The notes under the pieces were generated by a model. That model did not search any database, had not been told where the DNA came from, and saw only the letters and a list, made by a program, of their open reading frames with translations. A stretch of DNA of 64,000 nt from Gammaproteobacteria bacterium. GTDB lineage: Bacteria > Pseudomonadota > Gammaproteobacteria > GCA-001735895. Shown piece by piece: positions 17,484-41,147 of this stretch. The number at the start of each line of letters is the position of its first letter. Positions within the stretch are counted from its first letter, which is position 1. Location of the stretch: assembly GCA_029862005.1 (NCBI GenBank), contig JAOTYD010000001.1, positions 62,001 through 126,000 of the forward strand, read 5' to 3'. The position numbers and the translations under genes were made by a program.

Positions 17484-18878
17484 ATGCCGCTGGACAGTGA
17501 AAAGAAACCAACACTGTTACTGGTCGACGATGATGCAATTATCGCCGACAGTCTCGAGTATGTGCTCAGTGAAGAATATGAAATCGAGCGCGCTTCAGAT
17601 CGAGCCTCCAGCTTCCAGTTGATGAGCCAGATGACTGACTCGCCGACGCTGGCACTGGTCGACCTCGGGCTACCGCCCAATACGCATCGTCCCGATGAAG
17701 GTCTGGCGGTAATCAGAAAGATATCGCAGTTGCATCCGTCCACCCGTATCCTGGTCCTGTCCGGACAGGACAACAAGAAACACCTGTTTCAGGCCAAGGC
17801 CGACGGTGCTGTCGATTTTATCGCCAAGCCCTGTGATATCGCTGAAATCAGGGTGCGCCTGAAACGCCAGATCATCGCCGGCGGTGGCGCCGATTCAGGG
17901 CACGATGATATCGAAGGCATTGTCGGTTCCAGCGAAGAAATCGAACTGCTGCGTATGCAAATTCGCCAGCTGGCAGATTCACCCTACCCGGTGCTGATCG
18001 AAGGTGAGTCTGGAAGTGGCAAGGAAGTGGCCGCGCGCAATCTACATCGCTGCAGTTCGCGCAACCAGGCACCCTTCATGACCCTGAATTGCGCCGCCTT
18101 CAACGGTGAATTACTCGAGTCGCAGCTGTTTGGGCACGTCAAGGGTGCATTTACGGGGGCCACCGACACCAAGAACGGATTTTTTGCAGAGGCTGGCTCG
18201 GGGACTTTATTGCTTGACGAAGTGGCCGACCTGCCGCTGGATCTGCAGGCCAAGCTACTGCGTGTACTTGAAAATGGCGAGTACTATCGGCTTGGCGAAA
18301 CCCAGCCGCGACACTCCTCGGCACGGGTTCTGGCGGCCACTAACAAGGATATTTTTTCGGCCATCAAGAGTAACCAGTTCCGTGAAGATTTATACCATCG
18401 CCTCAGTGTTCTGACCCTACGCGTGCCCTCGCTTAAAGAACGCAACGGCGACAAGAATGAATTACTGTTTTACTTCATGCAGCAGGTCGCTGAAGAAGTG
18501 GCTGCATTTCAGCTCGATGAAGATGCACTAAGGCTTTGGAATGATTATACATTTCCGGGAAATGTGCGAGAATTGCGCAACATAATAATCAGGCTTTCAG
18601 CGAAGTATCCAGGACAGACCATAAAACCTGAGGTGCTGAAGAGGGAAATGTCAGGACTACAGCGACACAACGGTTCGTCTAGCAACGAAGACTGGCTTAA
18701 TAATGCCTTGCACGACAGCGGTTTTCAGCTTGATCAATTGCTCAAGGCGGTTGAAAAAGAAGTGATCGATCTGGCGATGCACAAGCACGATGGCAATGTC
18801 AGCAAGGCGGCTGAAATGCTGGGCATCAACCGGACGACCCTGTATGGCCGCATGGACCGGCTCGAGGTCAAGGAATAG
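17484..18878 (+). CDS. NtrC-family sigma-54 response regulator of the second pilus-like locus
   Basis: Full-length NtrC-type activator, 464 residues. The receiver spans about 10-130, with DDD at 15-17 and phospho-acceptor D60 in VDLGLP. The AAA+ domain spans about 145-380: Walker A GESGSGKE at 174-181, the sigma-54-contacting GAFTGA loop at 221-226, and Walker B LLLDEVADL near 242-250. The C-terminus is a Fis-type helix-turn-helix (NVSKAAEMLGINRTTLYGRM). It resembles the PrsR/PilR group. It starts the second machinery locus and abuts the ExeA-SPOR gene by 3 bp. The likely partner kinase is the orphan at 32921-34600 and a likely target is the sigma-54 promoter at 36181; both are inference from context. 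Confidence 0.9.
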   Translation: MPLDSEKKPTLLLVDDDAIIADSLEYVLSEEYEIERASDRASSFQLMSQMTDSPTLALVDLGLPPNTHRPDEGLAVIRKISQLHPSTRILVLSGQDNKKHLFQAKADGAVDFIAKPCDIAEIRVRLKRQIIAGGGADSGHDDIEGIVGSSEEIELLRMQIRQLADSPYPVLIEGESGSGKEVAARNLHRCSSRNQAPFMTLNCAAFNGELLESQLFGHVKGAFTGATDTKNGFFAEAGSGTLLLDEVADLPLDLQAKLLRVLENGEYYRLGETQPRHSSARVLAATNKDIFSAIKSNQFREDLYHRLSVLTLRVPSLKERNGDKNELLFYFMQQVAEEVAAFQLDEDALRLWNDYTFPGNVRELRNIIIRLSAKYPGQTIKPEVLKREMSGLQRHNGSSSNEDWLNNALHDSGFQLDQLLKAVEKEVIDLAMHKHDGNVSKAAEMLGINRTTLYGRMDRLEVKE

Positions 18879-18881
18879 ATC

Positions 18882-20591
18882 ATGTACGAAGACTATTTCG
18901 GCCTCGAACGTCCGCCGTTTAAAATTACTCCGGACACCAGCTTATTCTACGAAGGCGGCAAACGTGGCGATATTCTCGCCGCGCTGGTATACGCAATTCA
19001 TCGCGGTGAAGGCATCATCAAGGTTGTCGGTGAAGTCGGCAGCGGCAAGACCATGCTGTGTCGAATGCTGCAGCTCAAGTTACCGGACACGATAGAAATC
19101 GTCTACATCGCCAATCCGAGTGTATCGCCTGAGGATATTCTGTTTGTCATCGCACACGAGTTGGCGCTGCCGGTGACCAAGGATGATTCCAAGCATGAAG
19201 TCATGCATCTGTTGCAGGATTACCTGCTGCAGCGGCACATGGAAAACAAGCAGGTGGTCCTGTTCATCGAGGAGGCGCAGGGCATGCCGCTCGATACGCT
19301 CGAGGAAATCCGGCTGTTGTCAAATCTCGAGACGGATCAAAACAAGCTGCTGCAAATCGTCCTGTTCGGGCAACCTGAACTGGATCACAACCTGGCACAA
19401 CAGTCGATTCGACAATTACGTGAACGGATTACGCACAGTTTTGATCTTGAGCCATTGACGCAGGATGAAATACATAATTACCTGAATTTCCGCATGCGGG
19501 AGGTGGGTTACACCGGCCCAGAATTGATTAATCCCACGGTCGCGAAGAAGGTCGAGCAACATTCGAATGGACTATTACGCCGCATCAATATCATTGCCGA
19601 CAAAATCCTGCTGTCGGCGTTTGCAGAGGGTACCCACAACCTCAGCGCCAAGCACGTAACCGCGGCCGTTAACGATAGCACTTTTAATCCGAAGGTGCCG
19701 CGCAGATCCCGCGCTTTGTGGTGGCTCGGCATTCTGGTCGTCATTGCGCTGGCCGTGGCACTTTACCAGACCCGGTCACAATGGACCTCGATCCAGGTTT
19801 CGGATTTGTGGACTTCGACCCAGGCCTCGGATCAGATGCCCAAATCGGAAAATGCTGCAGAAATTGACAATCCGGTCACAGATATTGCGCCCCGGGCATT
19901 AGAAACTGATGCGACGTTAAAAACGGATGGGAGCGCTGAAGCCGACTCTAGTGATGCACCGGTTAAGGTTGCTACAGAGCCCGTATTGAGCACGGATGCA
20001 ACACCGGCCGAAACGGTGACCCAGGAGAGCATACAGACACCAGACCCGTTGGTGCAGGAAGCTGCAGTATCGGATCAGCCGTCCGAAAAAAAGATTACAA
20101 AGGTCGATGTGGCCGTGCTGCAGGCGACGGAAAAGGAACCGGTTGAAGCTGCACCGGTACCGGTTGTAGAAGACGAAGTCCTGCAGAGTGCGCTTGATCA
20201 GGCCGCCTCGAGCGATGCGCTCGTGACTGATAGCAGCAGTGATCTGGGCTTGACCGCGGATTACGATCAGTGGCTAAATGCAAAGTTGCGTGAGAGCCGT
20301 GACTGGCTGGTGAACGCAAACCGGGATAACGTGTCGATCCAGGTCCTGATGCGCAGTAAATCCGCCGCGCGAGAACTGGTCTATTATTTACGTAATGAAT
20401 GGCCGCTGGATTTGTCGCAAACGTATTTGTACGAGGTAAACACCGATACCAGAAGCATCTATCGGGTTTTTTATAGCGAGTTTAATTCTCTATCCCTGGG
20501 CAGGAATCAACTGGAACGTCTGCCCGATTCGGTAAAGAAAAATTCGCCTTACCTGCATTCGGTTTACCGGATGCAGAAAGCCTTGCTGTAG
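18882..20591 (+). CDS. ExeA/GspA-type AAA+ ATPase with transmembrane helix and SPOR domain
   Basis: 569 residues. The AAA+ domain (about 1-265) has Walker A GEVGSGKT at 50-57 and Walker B VVLFIEEAQGM. A membrane helix follows (about 278-295; ALWWLGILVVIALAVAL), then a long acidic, Thr/Ala-rich periplasmic linker (about 300-455). The C-terminal domain (about 480-566) has the SPOR pattern: VSIQVLMRSKSAARELV, YRVFYSEFNSLSLGRNQLERLP and YLHSVYRMQ. SPOR domains bind glycan strands lacking stem peptides. This matches the logic of GspA, which binds peptidoglycan and guides secretin insertion, but with SPOR as the wall-binding module. The secretin gene follows 28 bp later. Confidence 0.88.
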   Translation: MYEDYFGLERPPFKITPDTSLFYEGGKRGDILAALVYAIHRGEGIIKVVGEVGSGKTMLCRMLQLKLPDTIEIVYIANPSVSPEDILFVIAHELALPVTKDDSKHEVMHLLQDYLLQRHMENKQVVLFIEEAQGMPLDTLEEIRLLSNLETDQNKLLQIVLFGQPELDHNLAQQSIRQLRERITHSFDLEPLTQDEIHNYLNFRMREVGYTGPELINPTVAKKVEQHSNGLLRRINIIADKILLSAFAEGTHNLSAKHVTAAVNDSTFNPKVPRRSRALWWLGILVVIALAVALYQTRSQWTSIQVSDLWTSTQASDQMPKSENAAEIDNPVTDIAPRALETDATLKTDGSAEADSSDAPVKVATEPVLSTDATPAETVTQESIQTPDPLVQEAAVSDQPSEKKITKVDVAVLQATEKEPVEAAPVPVVEDEVLQSALDQAASSDALVTDSSSDLGLTADYDQWLNAKLRESRDWLVNANRDNVSIQVLMRSKSAARELVYYLRNEWPLDLSQTYLYEVNTDTRSIYRVFYSEFNSLSLGRNQLERLPDSVKKNSPYLHSVYRMQKALL

Positions 20592-34600: not shown

Positions 34601-34617
34601 AGGTGCAGGAAACTCAT

Positions 34618-35397
34618 ATGCTCGCTCAAACTATATCATTGTTCCGTTACCTGATGCTTGGAATTATGAGTAGACGATTGCTTGTGTTGCTGATACTTCT
34701 CGTGCTTGCCTCGGTATTGACGGGAAGCTTCATCAGTGAACTGGCAATCATTAATGGCAAGGCGATCGCGAGTGCTTTTATCGCCGATTTTTTACGCTAC
34801 AGCCTTGCGCTGCTGGCCCTGTTGACGATAGCCATCAGCGTTGCCGAAGACTATGAGTCGGGCCAGTTTGAGCGTTTATTGACAATGCCTCTGGCACGTT
34901 GGCAATACGTAGCGGCACAAACCCTGGTGATTGCGAGCCTATGCCTGTTGCTGGTATTACCGGTATTGATGCTGGTGTCGATGTACAGCGGTATCGCAAT
35001 CGGATTTTACTGGGCCACGGCCCTGTGGATGGAGCTGTTTTTACTGGGTGTGCTCGGATTGCTCGCTATCTTGAGCCTCGAAAAAATACCGCAGGCGGTG
35101 TTCTTTGCGCTGGCTATATACCTGCTGGCAAAATTGTCCGGACTGATAACCCTGATGTTGAGCGAAACGGTCAGACTATCAGAAGGCAGTGCTACTAGCC
35201 GTGCGATTGAATTTATTTTCAGCTCGATACTCTATATCGTACCGGGCGTCAATAGCTTTGCCGAAAATGATGTTTTCTTTGGCGGCGTCGATCTGTTGAC
35301 AACGCTGGGGGACCAGTTTGTCACGGTGGCAATCTATGCGCTGTTCATCCTGGCGGTCTGCCTGGTTGATTTTTATCGCAAGGAAATCAGTTTCTAG
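34618..35397 (+). CDS. ABC-2 type transporter permease
   Basis: 259 residues from the ATG at 34618, which has AGGA 7 bp upstream; a GTG at 34603 is possible. About six membrane helices in the ABC-2/NosY pattern (LLVLLILLVLASVLTG, then SLALLALLTIAISVAEDYESGQFERLLTMPLARWQYVAAQTLVI). The EDYESGQFERLLTMPL segment is typical of this permease family, near the coupling helix. Its ATPase is probably the gene at 36986, separated by an accessory gene and a prepilin gene. Start lies only 17 bp from the divergent kinase start. Stop overlaps the next GTG (TAGTG). Confidence 0.85.
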   Translation: MLAQTISLFRYLMLGIMSRRLLVLLILLVLASVLTGSFISELAIINGKAIASAFIADFLRYSLALLALLTIAISVAEDYESGQFERLLTMPLARWQYVAAQTLVIASLCLLLVLPVLMLVSMYSGIAIGFYWATALWMELFLLGVLGLLAILSLEKIPQAVFFALAIYLLAKLSGLITLMLSETVRLSEGSATSRAIEFIFSSILYIVPGVNSFAENDVFFGGVDLLTTLGDQFVTVAIYALFILAVCLVDFYRKEISF

Positions 35398-36134
35398 TGC
35401 ATCGATCCGAACGTCCGATTCTACAGTTACCGCGACCCGTACTGCTGGGATTCCTGGTTTTACTGGGCATTCAGATCTGCTACTACCACACTGGTAAGTC
35501 ACGCTTCGAAACCAGCTTCAGAGCGCTTGCGCCACCGTTTGACGCCTCGATTTATCGCAGTATCGCGATGGGGTCGGAACAATTGCTGGGATACTTGCTG
35601 GCGGTCCGCCTGCAGCTGCACGATAGCCAGGCCGGGCAACACTTCGTCTACAGCCAGATCGATTACCATGTGCTGATCGATTGGCTCGAGCAGATCACTC
35701 TGGTCAGCCCGGGGACAGAGTACCCAATGCTGCTGTCGTCCCGGATTTACACGACAACGCGAGATCATCAGCGGCTGCGATTGATTCTCGATTTTATCCA
35801 GCGCCGCTTCGACGACAATCCCCAGCTACACTGGCGCCGGTTGGCGGAGGCCAGCGTGATTGCCAAGCACCGTCTCGCCGACCTGGAGTTGGCGCTGAAA
35901 CTGGCCGAGAAAATCGCACAGCAACCGACCCACCTGAAAATCCCGCCCTGGGCGCGAGATATCCAGTTCTTATTGCTTGCCGACCTGAATGAACTGGAAT
36001 CAGCAATCGCAATCGTCCAGTCATTGCTGCAGACGAGTGCGGTGCACGACCCGGACGAAAGGCGTTTTCTCGAAAGTAAGCTGTTGGAATTTCAACAAAA
36101 GCTGACTGAATCCCGACAATCAACCCTCAATTGA
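35397..36134 (+). CDS. Membrane-anchored helical protein between ABC permease and prepilin
   Basis: 245 residues from a GTG that overlaps the permease stop. One N-terminal membrane helix (about 13-30; PVLLGFLVLLGIQICYY), then an all-helical, TPR/solenoid-like domain (for example YHVLIDWLEQITLVSP, LHWRRLAEASVIAKHRLADLELALKLAEKIAQQP, LNELESAIAIVQSLL). I do not recognise a named family. Position next to an ABC permease, a prepilin and an ABC ATPase suggests an accessory subunit, in the manner of PilG in the Myxococcus PilGHI transporter; that is analogy, not homology shown here. Confidence 0.75.
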   Translation: MHRSERPILQLPRPVLLGFLVLLGIQICYYHTGKSRFETSFRALAPPFDASIYRSIAMGSEQLLGYLLAVRLQLHDSQAGQHFVYSQIDYHVLIDWLEQITLVSPGTEYPMLLSSRIYTTTRDHQRLRLILDFIQRRFDDNPQLHWRRLAEASVIAKHRLADLELALKLAEKIAQQPTHLKIPPWARDIQFLLLADLNELESAIAIVQSLLQTSAVHDPDERRFLESKLLEFQQKLTESRQSTLN

Positions 36135-36180
36135 GTAAAAAATCTGCTGTGTGGCTAAGAATTACATAGATTTATTCGTT

Positions 36181-36197
36181 TTGGCATGTTAAATGCA
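36181..36197 (+). promoter_or_regulatory. Sigma-54 promoter of the prepilin gene at 36238
   Basis: TGGCATG-TTAA-ATGCA (36182-36197) matches the sigma-54 consensus TGGCACG-N4-TTGCA, with GG at 36183-36184 and GC at 36195-36196 exactly 10 bp apart. The expected start of transcription is near 36208, giving a leader of about 30 nt and a good RBS (GGGAGA) before the ATG. A full NtrC-type activator is encoded in the same locus at 17484. Confidence 0.8.
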
Positions 36198-36237
36198 TAC
36201 ATATTTTTAGACACAACCGAAACATAGGGAGAATTAC

Positions 36238-36900
36238 ATGCAGTTAATAAAACAAAAAGGTTTCACGCTTGTAGAAATCGCCATCGTACTGGTTATCGTG
36301 GGCCTGCTGATAGGCGGCGTCCTGAAGGGCCAGGAAATGATTACCAATGCCAAGCTCAAGCGTATCGAAAGCGATAACGCGGGTATCGCTGCGGCCATGT
36401 TTTCTTACCAGGACCGCTATCTGCAGCTGCCGGGGGATGACAGTGACGCCGTAAATAGGTTCACAGTATACGCGCCCGCCGATAACCCCAATGGTAACGG
36501 CGACGGCGTTATTGGTCTTGGAAATGACTGGGATGCTCCCATAGCTGCCCCTCCCTGGGCTGTCGGCGCTGATGAAACGCTAAAATTTTATGCTCATTTG
36601 CGCGCGGCGGGACTGGTTCCAGGCGATCCGAAAGACACTACCCGTCCATCCAATGCCTACGGTGGCCAAATCGGGGTCCAGGATGGATCACTGGCGATTT
36701 CCGGTCATGTCACCATTTTTGGCGCAATTGAGGGGCCGATCGCGAAAATTATCGAGGGCAGGCTCGATGACGGGACCCCAGATTCCGGGCGTATCCAGTC
36801 GGATGTACCTCCCGCACCAATGGATGCTGGCGCGGTTAATACCCAGGCCGGCCTGCCTTATGATGACAATGTGCGCTACAATATGGCTTTTCGTCTATAA
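36238..36900 (+). CDS. Type IV prepilin, likely major subunit of the second system
   Basis: 220 residues, canonical: leader MQLIKQKG before FTLVEIAIVLVIVGLLIGGVL (Glu5). KGQEMITNAKLKRIESDNAGIAAAMFSYQDRYLQLPGDDSDAVNRF follows, the alpha1-to-LPGDD signature of a widespread prepilin family. The globular part has almost no Cys. It has its own sigma-54 promoter, a strong RBS (GGGAGA 7-12 bp before ATG) and a dedicated terminator, so it is a separately controlled and probably abundant subunit. It lies between ABC transporter genes. Confidence 0.9.
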   Translation: MQLIKQKGFTLVEIAIVLVIVGLLIGGVLKGQEMITNAKLKRIESDNAGIAAAMFSYQDRYLQLPGDDSDAVNRFTVYAPADNPNGNGDGVIGLGNDWDAPIAAPPWAVGADETLKFYAHLRAAGLVPGDPKDTTRPSNAYGGQIGVQDGSLAISGHVTIFGAIEGPIAKIIEGRLDDGTPDSGRIQSDVPPAPMDAGAVNTQAGLPYDDNVRYNMAFRL

Positions 36901-36921
36901 ATCACAATCTTAGTTTGCCAC

Positions 36922-36953
36922 AATGGCCTGCCCGTTCGGCGGGCCATTTTTGT
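36922..36953 (+). terminator. Rho-independent terminator after the sigma-54 prepilin gene
   Basis: TGGCCTGCC (36924-36932), loop CGTTC, GGCGGGCCA (36938-36946), then TTTTTG. A 9-bp stem with one T-G wobble sits directly downstream of the prepilin stop. Confidence 0.88.
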
Positions 36954-36985
36954 TTAGGACGGAGATTTTTGAATACTGTTAATTT

Positions 36986-37705
36986 ATGACCCCGGCGCTC
37001 TCGATTTCCAATATCAGTTACTCGGTTTCGGGCCTCGAAATCCTTAAAGCCCTCAACCTGGAAGTGGACGAACAGCGATACTGCGCGATCGCGGGTGTAA
37101 ACGGTGCCGGCAAATCAACCCTGATCAAGCTAATTCTCGATCTAATCCGGCCTCAACCCGGTGGTGAGATACGTGTCTTCGGTTTCGATAACCAGGATCG
37201 GCAATGCCGCGATCAACTCACTTACCTGCCGGAAAAATTCAACGTCAAGAAAAACATTACCGGGCGCCAGTACCTCGATTTTATCGCCGCGGTTTACCAT
37301 CAGAATCCCGGCCGTAAAAAAATAGACGAACTCGCTGAACGCCTCGACTTTCCGTCCCGGCGGCTGGATTCCAGGGTAGGCGGGTACTCCAAGGGCATGG
37401 TGCAGAAACTGGGATTGGTAAGCTGCTTCATGCTTGAGCGGCGGTTGCTGATCCTCGATGAACCCTTAAGCGGTCTCGACCCGCGTGCGCGTTACCGGTT
37501 CAAGGAATTGATGCGCGATGAAAAATCTTCCGCGCGCACGGTTTTGTACAGCACCCATCTGCTCACCGATGCTGAAGATCTTTGCGATCGGTTCGGAATT
37601 TTGCATGATGGCGAAATGAAGTACCAGGGTACCCCGGACGATTGCCTGCAGCACTACCAGGCGGAAACGCTTGAACAAGCCTACATGAAATGCATTTCCG
37701 AATGA
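36986..37705 (+). CDS. ABC transporter ATP-binding protein
   Basis: 239 residues with all ABC motifs: Walker A GVNGAGKST (about 38-46), Q-loop-like LPEKFNVKKNITG, signature YSKGM, Walker B LLILDEPLSGLDP, and switch STHLLTDAEDLCDR. It belongs to the CcmA/NosF-like group that partners with ABC-2 permeases, so it probably powers the permease at 34618. The ATG has no close RBS: GGACGGAG lies 21 bp upstream, and an in-frame TAA at 36980 rules out an earlier start. The M. xanthus PilH ATPase of the pilGHI transporter is a functional analogue near a pilin gene. Confidence 0.9.
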   Translation: MTPALSISNISYSVSGLEILKALNLEVDEQRYCAIAGVNGAGKSTLIKLILDLIRPQPGGEIRVFGFDNQDRQCRDQLTYLPEKFNVKKNITGRQYLDFIAAVYHQNPGRKKIDELAERLDFPSRRLDSRVGGYSKGMVQKLGLVSCFMLERRLLILDEPLSGLDPRARYRFKELMRDEKSSARTVLYSTHLLTDAEDLCDRFGILHDGEMKYQGTPDDCLQHYQAETLEQAYMKCISE

Positions 37706-37765: not shown

Positions 37766-37792
37766 TGGATTCCGGCTTGTGCCGGAATGACA
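37766..37792. repeat. REP-like palindrome (TGGATTCCGGC type)
   Basis: ATTCCGGC (37769-37776), loop TTGT, GCCGGAAT (37781-37788), inside the familiar TGGATTCCGGC...GCCGGAATGACA frame found dispersed in many bacterial genomes. It lies between two convergent stop codons and may also help end transcription. Confidence 0.7.
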
Positions 37793-37795
37793 ATT

Positions 37796-38440
37796 CTAGC
37801 CGAGTTCCTTTAATTTACGCGTCAGCGTATTACGACCCCAGCCGAGCAATCGTGCGGCATCCTGTTTACGTCCACGCGTGGCCTCGAGGGCGCAGTCGAG
37901 CAGGGTTTTTTCAAAGGTCCGGGCGGCATTTTTCAGAATGTCGGTTTCGCCCTGGGACAATTGCTGCTTCGCCCACAGGCGCAGCTGTTCCTGCCAGTCG
38001 CTGATTTGGGCCGGCAGTCGCGATGGCCCCGGGCTGGCTTCGATCACCGGGTCGCAGGCGCGTGCCACGAGCTCGAGCGCGTCGTCGATATCGAAGGGTT
38101 TGGGAAGATACTCGAAAGCGCCATCGTGAAACGCCTGCACCGTGGTATCGAGATCGGTATAGGCCGTCATCACGATGATCGGTGTTTGTGGTGATATGTT
38201 TTTGATTTGCTTGAGCAATTCAAATCCGTTGATTCCGGGCATGCGGACATCGGTTATAATCAGGCTTGGTCGCGCCCCGGGATCGGTGCGCTTGAAACTT
38301 GCCAGTGCTACCGAGCCGGATTCAAAGGCCCTCACCTGGTAGCCATTATTGGTCAGGGTCTTTTCCAGTACCCAGCGCATTGATTGATCATCATCGATGA
38401 CCCAGATTAAGACAGGTACTTTATTGGTCGCTTGAGTCAT
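37796..38440 (-). CDS. ntrC: NtrC-like nitrogen response regulator lacking the AAA+ domain
   Basis: 214 residues instead of about 470. The receiver (about 8-128) is intact, with DDD at 16-18, phospho-acceptor D64 in ITDVRMPG, T92 and K114. A linker (about 130-172) with DWQEQLRLWAKQQLSQGETD follows, then the NtrC-type Fis domain (about 175-213) with RKQDAARLLGWGRNTLTRKLKELG, almost identical to the end of enteric NtrC. The whole sigma-54-contacting ATPase domain (GAFTGA, Walker A/B, about 240-250 residues) is absent, with no frameshift or leftover. Overlaps ntrB by 4 bp. It can still be phosphorylated and bind DNA but should not activate sigma-54 promoters. Confidence 0.92.
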   Translation of the reverse strand: MTQATNKVPVLIWVIDDDQSMRWVLEKTLTNNGYQVRAFESGSVALASFKRTDPGARPSLIITDVRMPGINGFELLKQIKNISPQTPIIVMTAYTDLDTTVQAFHDGAFEYLPKPFDIDDALELVARACDPVIEASPGPSRLPAQISDWQEQLRLWAKQQLSQGETDILKNAARTFEKTLLDCALEATRGRKQDAARLLGWGRNTLTRKLKELG

Positions 38441-39516
38441 GTTTTTTCCATGGGCAAAATGGTGCTGAAGGTCGTTCCGGTTTCCGAACTGTGCAGGTGG
38501 ATGGTACCCCCGTGTCGGGAGATGATTTCCTGGGCAATCGGCAGACCCAGGCCACTGCCTTCGGGCCTGTCGGTAATCATCGGCAGAAATATAGTTTCGC
38601 CGAGATCTGGCGGAATGCCGCGGCCGCTATCAATGATATCGACCTGTACCACCAGCGGATGAGTGACCCGGCCGATTGTAAACTGACGTCCTACGCGGGT
38701 TTTGAAGATTACCGCACCGCTTCCGTCGATTGCCTGTACCGCGTTGCGCACGATATTCAGGAAGGCCTGGATCAGCATGTCACGATCCGCCATGATTTCC
38801 GGAATGCTCGGGTCGTAATCGCGCTCTATCGTTATTCGATCGGGCTCGGCCGCCAGTATGATCCTGCGGATATGCTCCAGCACCTCGAGGATATTTACCG
38901 GTTTGCGCTGCATTTTGTTGCCGGGCACCAGCATCTTGCTGGTCAGGGATTGCAGGCGATCGACCTCGCTGACGATGATCTCGGTATACTCGTTCCACTC
39001 GGGACGATCGAGCGCGCGTTGTAGCAATTGTGCCGCACCGCGAATGCCACCCAGCGGATTGTTGATCTCGTGCGCGATCCCGCGCGCGAGCTGCTGAGTG
39101 GCCTGTTTCTGCAACTGATTGAGTTCGTCCTGTGCAAACTGTGCCTGGTGCTCGTGCTGACGAATTTCAATGACGAGCGCGTCATCCGACTGCCCCCCGT
39201 CGAGCGGATAGATGCTGTAGCTGGCCGTAATGGCCTTACCATTTTCAAGAGTGATCACCGCTTCGTGCTCGGTAAACGCAATTGAGTCGAGTTTCAGCTT
39301 CGAGAGGATACTGGAAGGTTCTACCTGGCTCAGCAGGCTGTCGAATCTGCGCCCGATCAGGCTCGAGGCGCTGCTTTCGAACAGCACTTCTGCGGCTGTG
39401 TTAACGTAGGTGATGCAACGCTCGCCATCGAGACAGAGTATCGACGAGTTAAGCGTATCGAGAATACGATAACCGTTGTCGATCTCCTGGACCGAATTTA
39501 GTTTTGGCTGCTGCAT
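38437..39516 (-). CDS. glnL: Nitrogen regulation sensor kinase NtrB (GlnL)
   Basis: Soluble histidine kinase/phosphatase that controls NtrC phosphorylation in response to PII. 359 residues: PAS domain (about 15-120), H-box with H149 in ARGIAHEINNPLGGIRGAAQLL (the NtrB signature, here EINNP), N-box FLNIVRNAVQAI, and G boxes DSGRGIPPD and GSGLGLPIAQ. It is complete even though its partner NtrC lacks the AAA+ domain. Separated from glnA by a strong terminator, so ntrBC probably has its own promoter. Confidence 0.95.
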   Translation of the reverse strand: MQQPKLNSVQEIDNGYRILDTLNSSILCLDGERCITYVNTAAEVLFESSASSLIGRRFDSLLSQVEPSSILSKLKLDSIAFTEHEAVITLENGKAITASYSIYPLDGGQSDDALVIEIRQHEHQAQFAQDELNQLQKQATQQLARGIAHEINNPLGGIRGAAQLLQRALDRPEWNEYTEIIVSEVDRLQSLTSKMLVPGNKMQRKPVNILEVLEHIRRIILAAEPDRITIERDYDPSIPEIMADRDMLIQAFLNIVRNAVQAIDGSGAVIFKTRVGRQFTIGRVTHPLVVQVDIIDSGRGIPPDLGETIFLPMITDRPEGSGLGLPIAQEIISRHGGTIHLHSSETGTTFSTILPMEKT

Positions 39517-39556: not shown

Positions 39557-39589
39557 ACAAAAAAGGCCCCGCGCGAGGGGCCTTTTTGT
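39557..39589. terminator. Rho-independent terminator downstream of glnA
   Basis: AAAAAGGCCCC (about 39560-39570), loop GCGCGA, GGGGCCTTTTT (39577-39587). A symmetric strong hairpin with A/T runs on both sides, between glnA and ntrB, both leftward. Confidence 0.9.
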
Positions 39590-39608
39590 CGGTCGTACAA
39601 ACGAAAGC

Positions 39609-41018
39609 CTAGCAGCTGTAGTAAAGGTCAAACTCAACCGGATTGGTCGCGAGGCGAAGACGCTGTACTTCCTCGTCCTTCAGTTCGATGTAGCCGTCGA
39701 TCACGTCATCGGTGAAGACGCCTCCGGCCTTGAGGAATTCGCGATCCTGGTCCAGCGCATCCAGCGCCTGGTCGAATGAAAAGGCGACCTGTGGAATTTC
39801 GGCCTCTTCCTCGGGCGGTAAATCGTAGAGATCCTTGTCCATCGCTTCACCCGGGTGCAGCTGGTTCTTGATGCCATCCAGTCCCGCCATCATCAGTGCG
39901 GCAAACGCGAGATAAGGATTGGCGGTTGAATCCGGGAAGCGTACTTCGATACGGCGTGCTTTCGGATTACTGACGTAGGGAATACGTATCGAAGCGGAGC
40001 GATTGCGCGCGGAGTAGGCGAGCATGACCGGAGCTTCGAAACCCGGTACCAGTCGTTTATAGCTATTGGTGGCAGCATTGGCAAAAGCATTGATCGCGCG
40101 CGCGTGCTTGATCACCCCGCCGATGTAGTACAACGCGGTATCCGATAAACCGCCATAGCCTTCGCCGGCGAACAGGTTAACCCCGTCCTTGACCAGGGAC
40201 ATGTGCACGTGCATACCGTTACCGTTGTCACCGACCAGTGGCTTCGGCATGAAGGTTGCGGTCTTGCCGTAGCTGTGTGCGACGTTGTGGACACAGTATT
40301 TCAGCACCTGGATTTCATCGGCTTTACGCACCAGGGTATTGAATTCCACACCTATTTCACACTGTCCCGCGGTTGCGACCTCATGGTGGTGAACCTCGAC
40401 CTTGAGGCCCATTTCTTCCATCGCCAGGCACATTGCCGAGCGAATGTCGTGTAACGAATCCACCGGGGGTACCGGGAAATAGCCCCCTTTAACGCCTGGC
40501 CGATGTCCGATGTTGCCGTCTTCGTACATTTTAATCGAGCTCCAGGCGGCTTCCTCGGACTCGATCTGGTAAGAGCAATGCCCCATTTCGGTCGACCACT
40601 TGACGTCGTCGAAGACAAAAAACTCGTTTTCCGGGCCGAAGTAAGCAGCATCGGCGATTCCGGATGCCTTCAGGTAAGCCTCGGCGCGCTCGGCAATGGA
40701 GCGAGGGTCGCGCTCGTAGCCTTCACCCGTGGCGGGCTCGACCACGTTACAGGTAAGGTTGATGGTGGGTTCATCGGTAAACGGATCCAGCACCGCGGTT
40801 GCCGGGTCGGGCATCAGGATCATGTCGGATTCGTTTATGCCTTTCCAGCCAGCCACCGAGGAGCCGTCAAACATTTTGCCTTCGGTAAAGGTATCTTCCC
40901 CGAGGGTACTTGCCGGGACCGAGACATGCTGCTCCTTTCCCTTGGTATCGGTAAAGCGGAAATCGACGAATTTCACGCCGTACTCGTTAATCTTGCTCAA
41001 CACATCAGACGCAGACAT
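39609..41018 (-). CDS. glnA: Glutamine synthetase type I
   Basis: Dodecameric cytosolic enzyme making glutamine from glutamate, ammonia and ATP. 469 residues, the normal GSI-beta length. Motifs: [15 protein letters not shown] near the N-terminus, [30 protein letters not shown] and [10 protein letters not shown]. The adenylylation site is the Tyr in [10 protein letters not shown], so activity is probably also controlled by GlnE. The RBS GGAGAA precedes the ATG. Its upstream region holds a sigma-70-like promoter and NtrC-type sites. Confidence 0.98.
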
Positions 41019-41056: not shown

Positions 41057-41084
41057 ATTGTACCGATTAATGCCTCGATGCCAA
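41057..41084 (-). promoter_or_regulatory. Sigma-70-like promoter of glnA
   Basis: Read on the minus strand: TTGGCA (41084-41079), 16-bp spacer, TACAAT (41062-41057), each with one mismatch to consensus, about 40 bp before the glnA ATG. No GG-N10-GC sigma-54 signature was found between the NtrC-type site and the ATG. Confidence 0.6.
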
Positions 41085-41147
41085 CTTATCGTGCAAAAAT
41101 CCGGGTTTGGGAGTCAATTATGACAAAATTGCACCAATAAAGTGCAA
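41079..41147 (-). promoter_or_regulatory. NtrC-type binding sites upstream of glnA
   Basis: TTGCAC-N7-GTGCAA at 41129-41147 is a perfect match to the NtrC palindrome (TGCAC-N7-GTGCA). A weaker second copy, TGCCA-N7-GTGCA at 41079-41095, lies 51 bp closer to glnA and overlaps the -35 element. The strong site would be centred about 88 bp and the weak one about 37 bp upstream of the predicted start of transcription. Confidence 0.65.

Follow-up and report, generated by a model that had tools for sequence, protein, structure and literature searches.

The window analysed here (the whole stretch of DNA, 64,000 nucleotides) comes from a group of uncultured, marine-type bacteria and carries genes for glutamine synthetase and for a nitrogen two-component system in the order glnA-ntrB-ntrC, with glnA upstream. 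We assigned the following features to these genes:

37796..38440, (-) strand: short ntrC, ATG start, 214 aa, a receiver joined to a Fis-type DNA-binding domain (Pfam and NtrC model)
37799..37999, (-) strand: complete NtrC-type DNA-binding domain with dimerisation helices, aa 148-214, 1NTC-like (1NTC match, dN/dS and model)
38000..38056, (-) strand: variable linker, aa 129-147, predicted to be disordered (alignment, dN/dS and pLDDT)
38057..38407, (-) strand: receiver domain, aa 12-128 (Pfam, alignment, dN/dS and model)
38437..39516, (-) strand: ntrB, histidine kinase NR(II), 359 aa, HEINNP motif present (Pfam and NR(II) model)
39557..39590, (-) strand: hairpin resembling an intrinsic terminator, followed by a T run, between glnA and ntrB (read by eye, without a tool score)
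39609..41018, (-) strand: glnA, glutamine synthetase

The start of ntrC and the end of ntrB share 4 bp, and the ntrB product clears the cut-off of the NR(II) model (289 versus 240 bits). The initial annotation had described the neighbouring protein as an NtrC receiver joined to the NtrC Fis-type domain, 214 residues in all, with the AAA+ domain gone, and this description held on analysis with Pfam and the NtrC model. Response_reg (PF00072) was detected at residues 12-124 (E = 3.4e-29) and HTH_8/Fis (PF02954) at residues 174-213 (E = 7e-14), and Sigma54_activat (PF00158) was absent from the 214-residue protein in the Pfam scan. The NtrC model TIGR01818, which has a cut-off of 558.6 bits, matched the protein with two end pieces only, for a total of 220 bits. 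The loss had been put at 240-250 residues; this was close, as we counted a gap of about 255 residues against an NtrC of 469 residues, and the linker stands where the AAA+ domain is placed in other NtrCs. The C-terminal end had been called nearly identical to enteric NtrC, and the kinship is supported by the alignment of residues 137-214 with 1NTC, the solved DNA-binding domain of enteric NtrC (E = 6e-16); the C-terminal end, GRKQDAARLLGWGRNTLTRKLKELG, is part of this segment.

Residues D16-D18, D64, T92 and K114 of the receiver were invariant in 13 aligned short NtrCs, and by homology D64 is the phospho-acceptor. An AlphaFold model, built on an alignment of 13 rows only, showed pLDDT values below 50 at residues 133-146 in the linker, and four helices in the DNA-binding module (residues 145-162, 168-187, 192-199 and 203-213). 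The 1NTC match from residue 137, along with this model, shows that the whole DNA-binding module is retained, including the helices that precede the helix-turn-helix. A fold search with the model returned matches mainly to receivers. Among the hallmarks of NtrC, the protein therefore has a receiver with phospho-acceptor and conserved T/K, a C-terminal Fis/dimerisation domain, an ntrB operon partner, linkage to glnA, and NtrC-type palindromes at glnA and glnK; an AAA+ domain bearing GAFTGA and the Walker A/B motifs, and target promoters of the -24/-12 type, are missing.

Two further observations concern the surroundings of the gene. A REP-like palindrome, GATTCCGGCTTGTGCCGGAATGACA, lies at 37768-37792, a few bases beyond the ntrC stop codon, and is the sole copy in the window. 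On the (+) strand at 34603-37705, reading of the sequence only suggests a permease-like ABC ORF (34603-35397) and an ABC ATPase (36986-37705), separated by two unrelated ORFs, one of which is prepilin-like (36238-36900).

Distribution, selection and history of the AAA+ loss

We carried out a census of 41 genomes of the order (one family, three genera). The same continuous short ntrC ORF was found in 18 genomes of the genus, including our own; the short ntrC of G016 was cut by a contig end. In G015 and G020, ntrC likewise runs off a contig. Full-length NtrC was present in two genomes of the same genus (G007 and G008) and in eight genomes of two sister genera (g2 and g3), and these relatives carry a GAFTGA NtrC at the same locus. 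An assembly deletion, relatives with full-length ntrC at the locus, or another intact NtrC in the genome had been listed at the outset as possible refutations. The occurrence of the same short gene in 18 genomes excludes an assembly deletion. Full-length relatives do exist, and their position among congeners and in sister genera indicates that the loss is lineage-specific and not an error. Loss of the whole system in G003, G004, G019, G024 and G027 was considered and rejected, as glnA is missing from these genomes too. Most genomes without ntrC also lack the essential glnA, or carry only a copy truncated by the end of a contig, and we therefore regard these absences as assembly gaps.

The third possibility was addressed in our own genome (97% complete), where we found one rpoN and a strong AAA+ activator domain in seven proteins. 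No second NtrC was found among these seven sigma54 activators, the best reaching 394 bits against the NtrC cut-off. Five of the seven were scanned by name: one proved to be a PEP-CTERM-box response regulator, and the other four reached none of the curated cut-offs shown. The last two, which lie near each other on contig 6 (C6:19956-23099), were read only, without a model scan. Within the window, at about 17517-18930 on the (+) strand, lies a sigma54 activator with a receiver whose nearest model is that of the PEP-CTERM-box response regulator, below cut-off (341 versus 502.6 bits). The presence of rpoN indicates that sigma54 is kept for other genes, and rpoN was found in every genome of the genus tested, whether NtrC was short or full-length.

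Within the main short clade, dN/dS had a median of 0.07 across the receiver, 0.05 across the DNA-binding domain and 0.68 across the linker. Both kept domains are thus under strong purifying selection, and the linker is near-neutral.

In a tree built from GlnA, NtrB and the receiver, the 16 main short genomes formed one clade (100%), and a second short clade (G009 and G022) grouped with the full-length G007/G008 and with G023, another member of the genus (95% bootstrap). A single loss was disfavoured in an AU test with few replicates (p-AU 0.04). It is therefore likely that AAA+ was lost twice within the genus, although a single origin is not strongly excluded. The ntrC of G023 (L142, G023:C21, frame from 4577) is full-length with a degenerate AAA+ domain, in which the GAFTGA loop is gone, Walker B is lost or degraded and Walker A reads GEQGTGKT; G023 is probably a living intermediate of the loss.

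When one genome per species was scanned, further continuous copies of the short gene came up beside that of our own genome. Some were at approximately 75-88% identity (the Olavius algarvensis Gamma 3 endosymbiont has one of these), two more at approximately 57-61%, and a single copy, from an Acidiferrobacteraceae genome, at 47%. G046, a genome of another family (1.7 Mb, 96% complete), encodes an AAA-less NtrC of 198 aa after ntrB and glnA (L324, G046:C14, 5082-5675); no match to rpoN was found in G046, and two NtrC palindromes lie close to its glnA start, one containing TATAAT. The AAA-less NtrC at L024, 3923-4564 (Acidiferrobacteraceae), also adjoins ntrB and glnA, and the rpoN match of that genome is in a short frame of 200 aa.

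Promoters of glnA and glnK-amtB

Three features were identified upstream of glnA:

41057..41084, (-) strand: sigma70-type core of glnA, TTGGCA - 16 bp - TACAAT, 10/12 consensus bases
41079..41095, (-) strand: second element, TGCAC-N7-TGGCA, a half-site overlapping -35
41130..41146, (-) strand: NtrC-type palindrome TGCACTTTATTGGTGCA, centre at about -88

The palindrome and a TTGG(C/T)A-16-TACAAT core were present at glnA across the genus, full-length species included, and the core was also seen in part of the sister genera. No convincing -24/-12 element was detected at glnA across the genus or in the sister genera examined; a more distant full-length relative (L031) carries TGGCACGGTTCATGCTA (-24/-12) there. 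Since the sigma70-type core is common to the full-length congeners, the switch of the glnA promoter appears to be older than the loss of AAA+.

Measured from the centre of the palindrome to -35, the spacing was 53-55 bp for the majority of genomes in the genus, 43-44 bp in G002, G020, G021 and G022, and 33 bp in G010. These distances differ by whole helical turns (P of about 0.002 under a simple model of four changes, uniform over 2-25 bp), a phasing that the sister genus g2 breaks (39 and 41 bp). A TTTGCAC half-site preceded -35 in 16/16 readable genomes of the main short clade and in 0/12 others compared, and in the same clade -35 is also altered to TTGGCA. The 16 comprise 15 genomes in which the short gene was read and G025, which lies inside the clade and has its ntrC cut by a contig end. 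A search of the genome for palindromes with up to one mismatch gave 89 sites against 47 control sites. The glnA palindrome was called terminator-like by a simple scan, a function that we rejected as the main reading because the TGCAC/GTGCA arms recur at glnK with no T run behind them, and because at glnA they stand at whole-turn distances from the promoter.

Our own genome contains two closely similar glnK-amtB units (C79:3459 and C4:167060). NtrC-type sites 31 bp apart precede both of these amtB-linked glnK genes, and similarly spaced sites were found at most such genes of the short-clade relatives. Where NtrC is full-length, amtB-linked glnK had a -24/-12 element 50-65 bp before its start codon in eight of nine cases (carriers G007, G008, G031, G032, G033, G038, G039 and G040). 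The elements were scored with our own approximate matrix (scores 8.8-14.9), with p values obtained from shuffles. Five of the eight had p values of 0.01 or less; those of G031 (0.15), G040 (0.09) and G038 (0.03) were not clearly above shuffles and rest on their constant position. None was found in the 11 main short-clade promoters or in G022 of the second clade. The manner of loss differs, in that the main clade lacks a segment of about 50 bp and the second clade retains the segment minus the element. In place of -24/-12, glnK of the short-NtrC species has a conserved block that is weakly sigma70-like, a reading that we consider tentative. No -24/-12 was found at the G023 glnK examined, and NtrC-type sites were also missing there, so this promoter may not be an NtrC target.

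The proposal in the initial annotation that nitrogen control proceeds without sigma54 at NtrC targets is thus supported by the promoter sequences, because the palindromes are kept, the glnA core is of the sigma70 type and -24/-12 at glnK tracks full-length NtrC. Whether this control is activation or repression remains a matter of inference.

Proposed mechanism and alternative explanations

We consider it likely that the short protein is an NtrB-controlled, ATPase-free NtrC that regulates, and most probably activates, sigma70 promoters; its expression, phosphorylation and DNA binding are inferred. A precise in-frame loss of AAA+ has cut an ntrC orthologue to a receiver, a linker and a dimeric Fis-type domain, and in this model NtrB would still phosphorylate the protein. 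The phospho-dimer would bind the palindromes upstream of glnA and glnK-amtB, the retention of which is shown. Short NtrC cannot open sigma54 promoters, which its putative targets lack, and sigma54 is retained for other activators. Activation would most likely work in the class-I manner, with the protein bound at about -88, always on one face of the helix, and touching sigma70 RNA polymerase directly; in the main clade the second element overlapping -35 may help. The regulatory sign is likewise inferred, activation being preferred because in the enteric system a need for glnA coincides with the phosphorylation of NtrC, and because of the helical phasing. With regard to the order of events, the sigma70-type core of glnA would predate the loss and leave AAA+ dispensable, after which the domain would have decayed (G023) or been deleted (the two short clades); the sigma54 element of glnK-amtB would have been lost alongside AAA+.

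The main rival, which remains possible, is that short NtrC acts as a repressor or as an anti-activator, its phospho-dimers at the palindrome and over -35 blocking RNA polymerase. Enteric NtrC represses sigma70 promoters by occlusion, for example glnAp1, and the short form would then have kept the half of that protein's activity which does not depend on AAA+, namely the repression of glnAp1 and of the ntrC operon itself. The second element of the main short clade, which lies partly over the -35 hexamer, is in favour of this reading, as are the palindromes near the glnA start in G046, one with TATAAT. However, phosphorylation of NtrC by enteric NtrB takes place when nitrogen is limiting and the cell needs glnA, and repression would have the wrong sign unless the logic is inverted. 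The phased far site at -88 also fits polymerase contact better, although looping between two sites could require phasing too. It is very unlikely, on the other hand, that short NtrC works with sigma54 by borrowing the AAA+ ring of another enhancer-binding protein in trans. The genome does have rpoN and seven activators with intact AAA+ domains, but -24/-12 is missing at glnA and at glnK of the short-form species, the other activators have receivers and DNA-binding domains of their own with no NtrC match, and G046 has no detectable rpoN.

Two further explanations are all but excluded. The gene could be decaying or misassembled, with AAA+ missing by artefact or the gene a pseudogene on its way out, and the absence of the locus from several draft genomes of the genus would be in line with this. 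Against it stand the single architecture across 18 genomes, the low dN/dS of the kept domains, the invariant phosphorylation residues, the binding sites, which are kept and even elaborated, and the assembly gaps that account for most drafts without ntrC. Alternatively, a separately evolved redox regulator of the RegA/PrrA/ActR type could have replaced ntrC at the locus, as these proteins have the identical plan of receiver, linker and Fis-type helix-turn-helix without AAA+. However, the ActR/PrrA/RegA model NF033791 gave 64.5 bits against a cut-off of 250, compared with 220 for the NtrC model; the DNA-binding domain matches that of NtrC in 1NTC, the protein occupies the place of ntrC beside ntrB and glnA, and its receiver is 55-63% identical to that of the full-length congeners.

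Returning to the sigma70 regulator that we favour, a bolder reading is that deletion of the AAA+ motor turned a sigma54 enhancer-binding protein into a classical two-domain sigma70 activator, at least twice in the genus and again in other families, with stepwise rewiring of promoters (the glnA core, then loss of -24/-12 at glnK, then the second site at -35) and living intermediates. The present evidence leaves this reading as apt to fail as to hold.

Relation to known NtrC proteins and response regulators

NtrC is the standard example of a sigma54 activator, and the AAA+ motor is generally held to be a part it cannot do without. Our search of open-access full text, which left out most subscription papers, brought up no earlier account of an NtrC that lacks AAA+ and is partnered with NtrB. 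A natural NtrC that is under selection without AAA+ shows the motor uncoupled from DNA binding and phospho-control. A genus with full-length, degenerate and deleted forms, together with matching promoters, makes the shift of a regulator between sigma classes testable. Caution is also needed in inferring sigma54-dependent nitrogen control from ntrC and rpoN alone, as both genes occur in these genomes and short NtrC cannot itself open sigma54 promoters.

The short form resembles enteric NtrC (NR(I), TIGR01818) in its position in glnA-ntrB-ntrC, its NtrB partner, its receiver and DNA-binding domain, and its sites of the TGCAC-N7-GTGCA type. Unlike enteric NtrC, it has no AAA+ domain and hence no ATPase, hexameric ring or sigma54 contact, and its targets lack -24/-12. 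The GAFTGA-less NtrCs of Rhodobacter capsulatus and Caulobacter also serve sigma70-type promoters in nitrogen control, but they keep and need AAA+. NtrC of R. capsulatus requires ATP binding (as cited in PMC10274813), and Caulobacter NtrC at sigma70 promoters requires Walker A, Walker B and the whole AAA+ domain (PMC10274813). Since Caulobacter NtrC is nonfunctional without AAA+, an active NtrC lacking the domain is not self-evident. The contrast drawn initially with R. capsulatus, of partial loss there and complete loss here, held, as the short form has no AAA+ at all and only G023 comes near the R. capsulatus and Caulobacter proteins.

ActR/PrrA/RegA regulators share the plan of the short form and act at sigma70 promoters, but they respond to redox and not to nitrogen and have another sensor kinase, and short NtrC falls far below the cut-off of their model. 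FixJ/NarL and OmpR/PhoB have a different DNA-binding domain, with only the receiver being similar; they nevertheless offer the probable working mode of short NtrC, that of a phospho-dimer touching sigma70 RNA polymerase.
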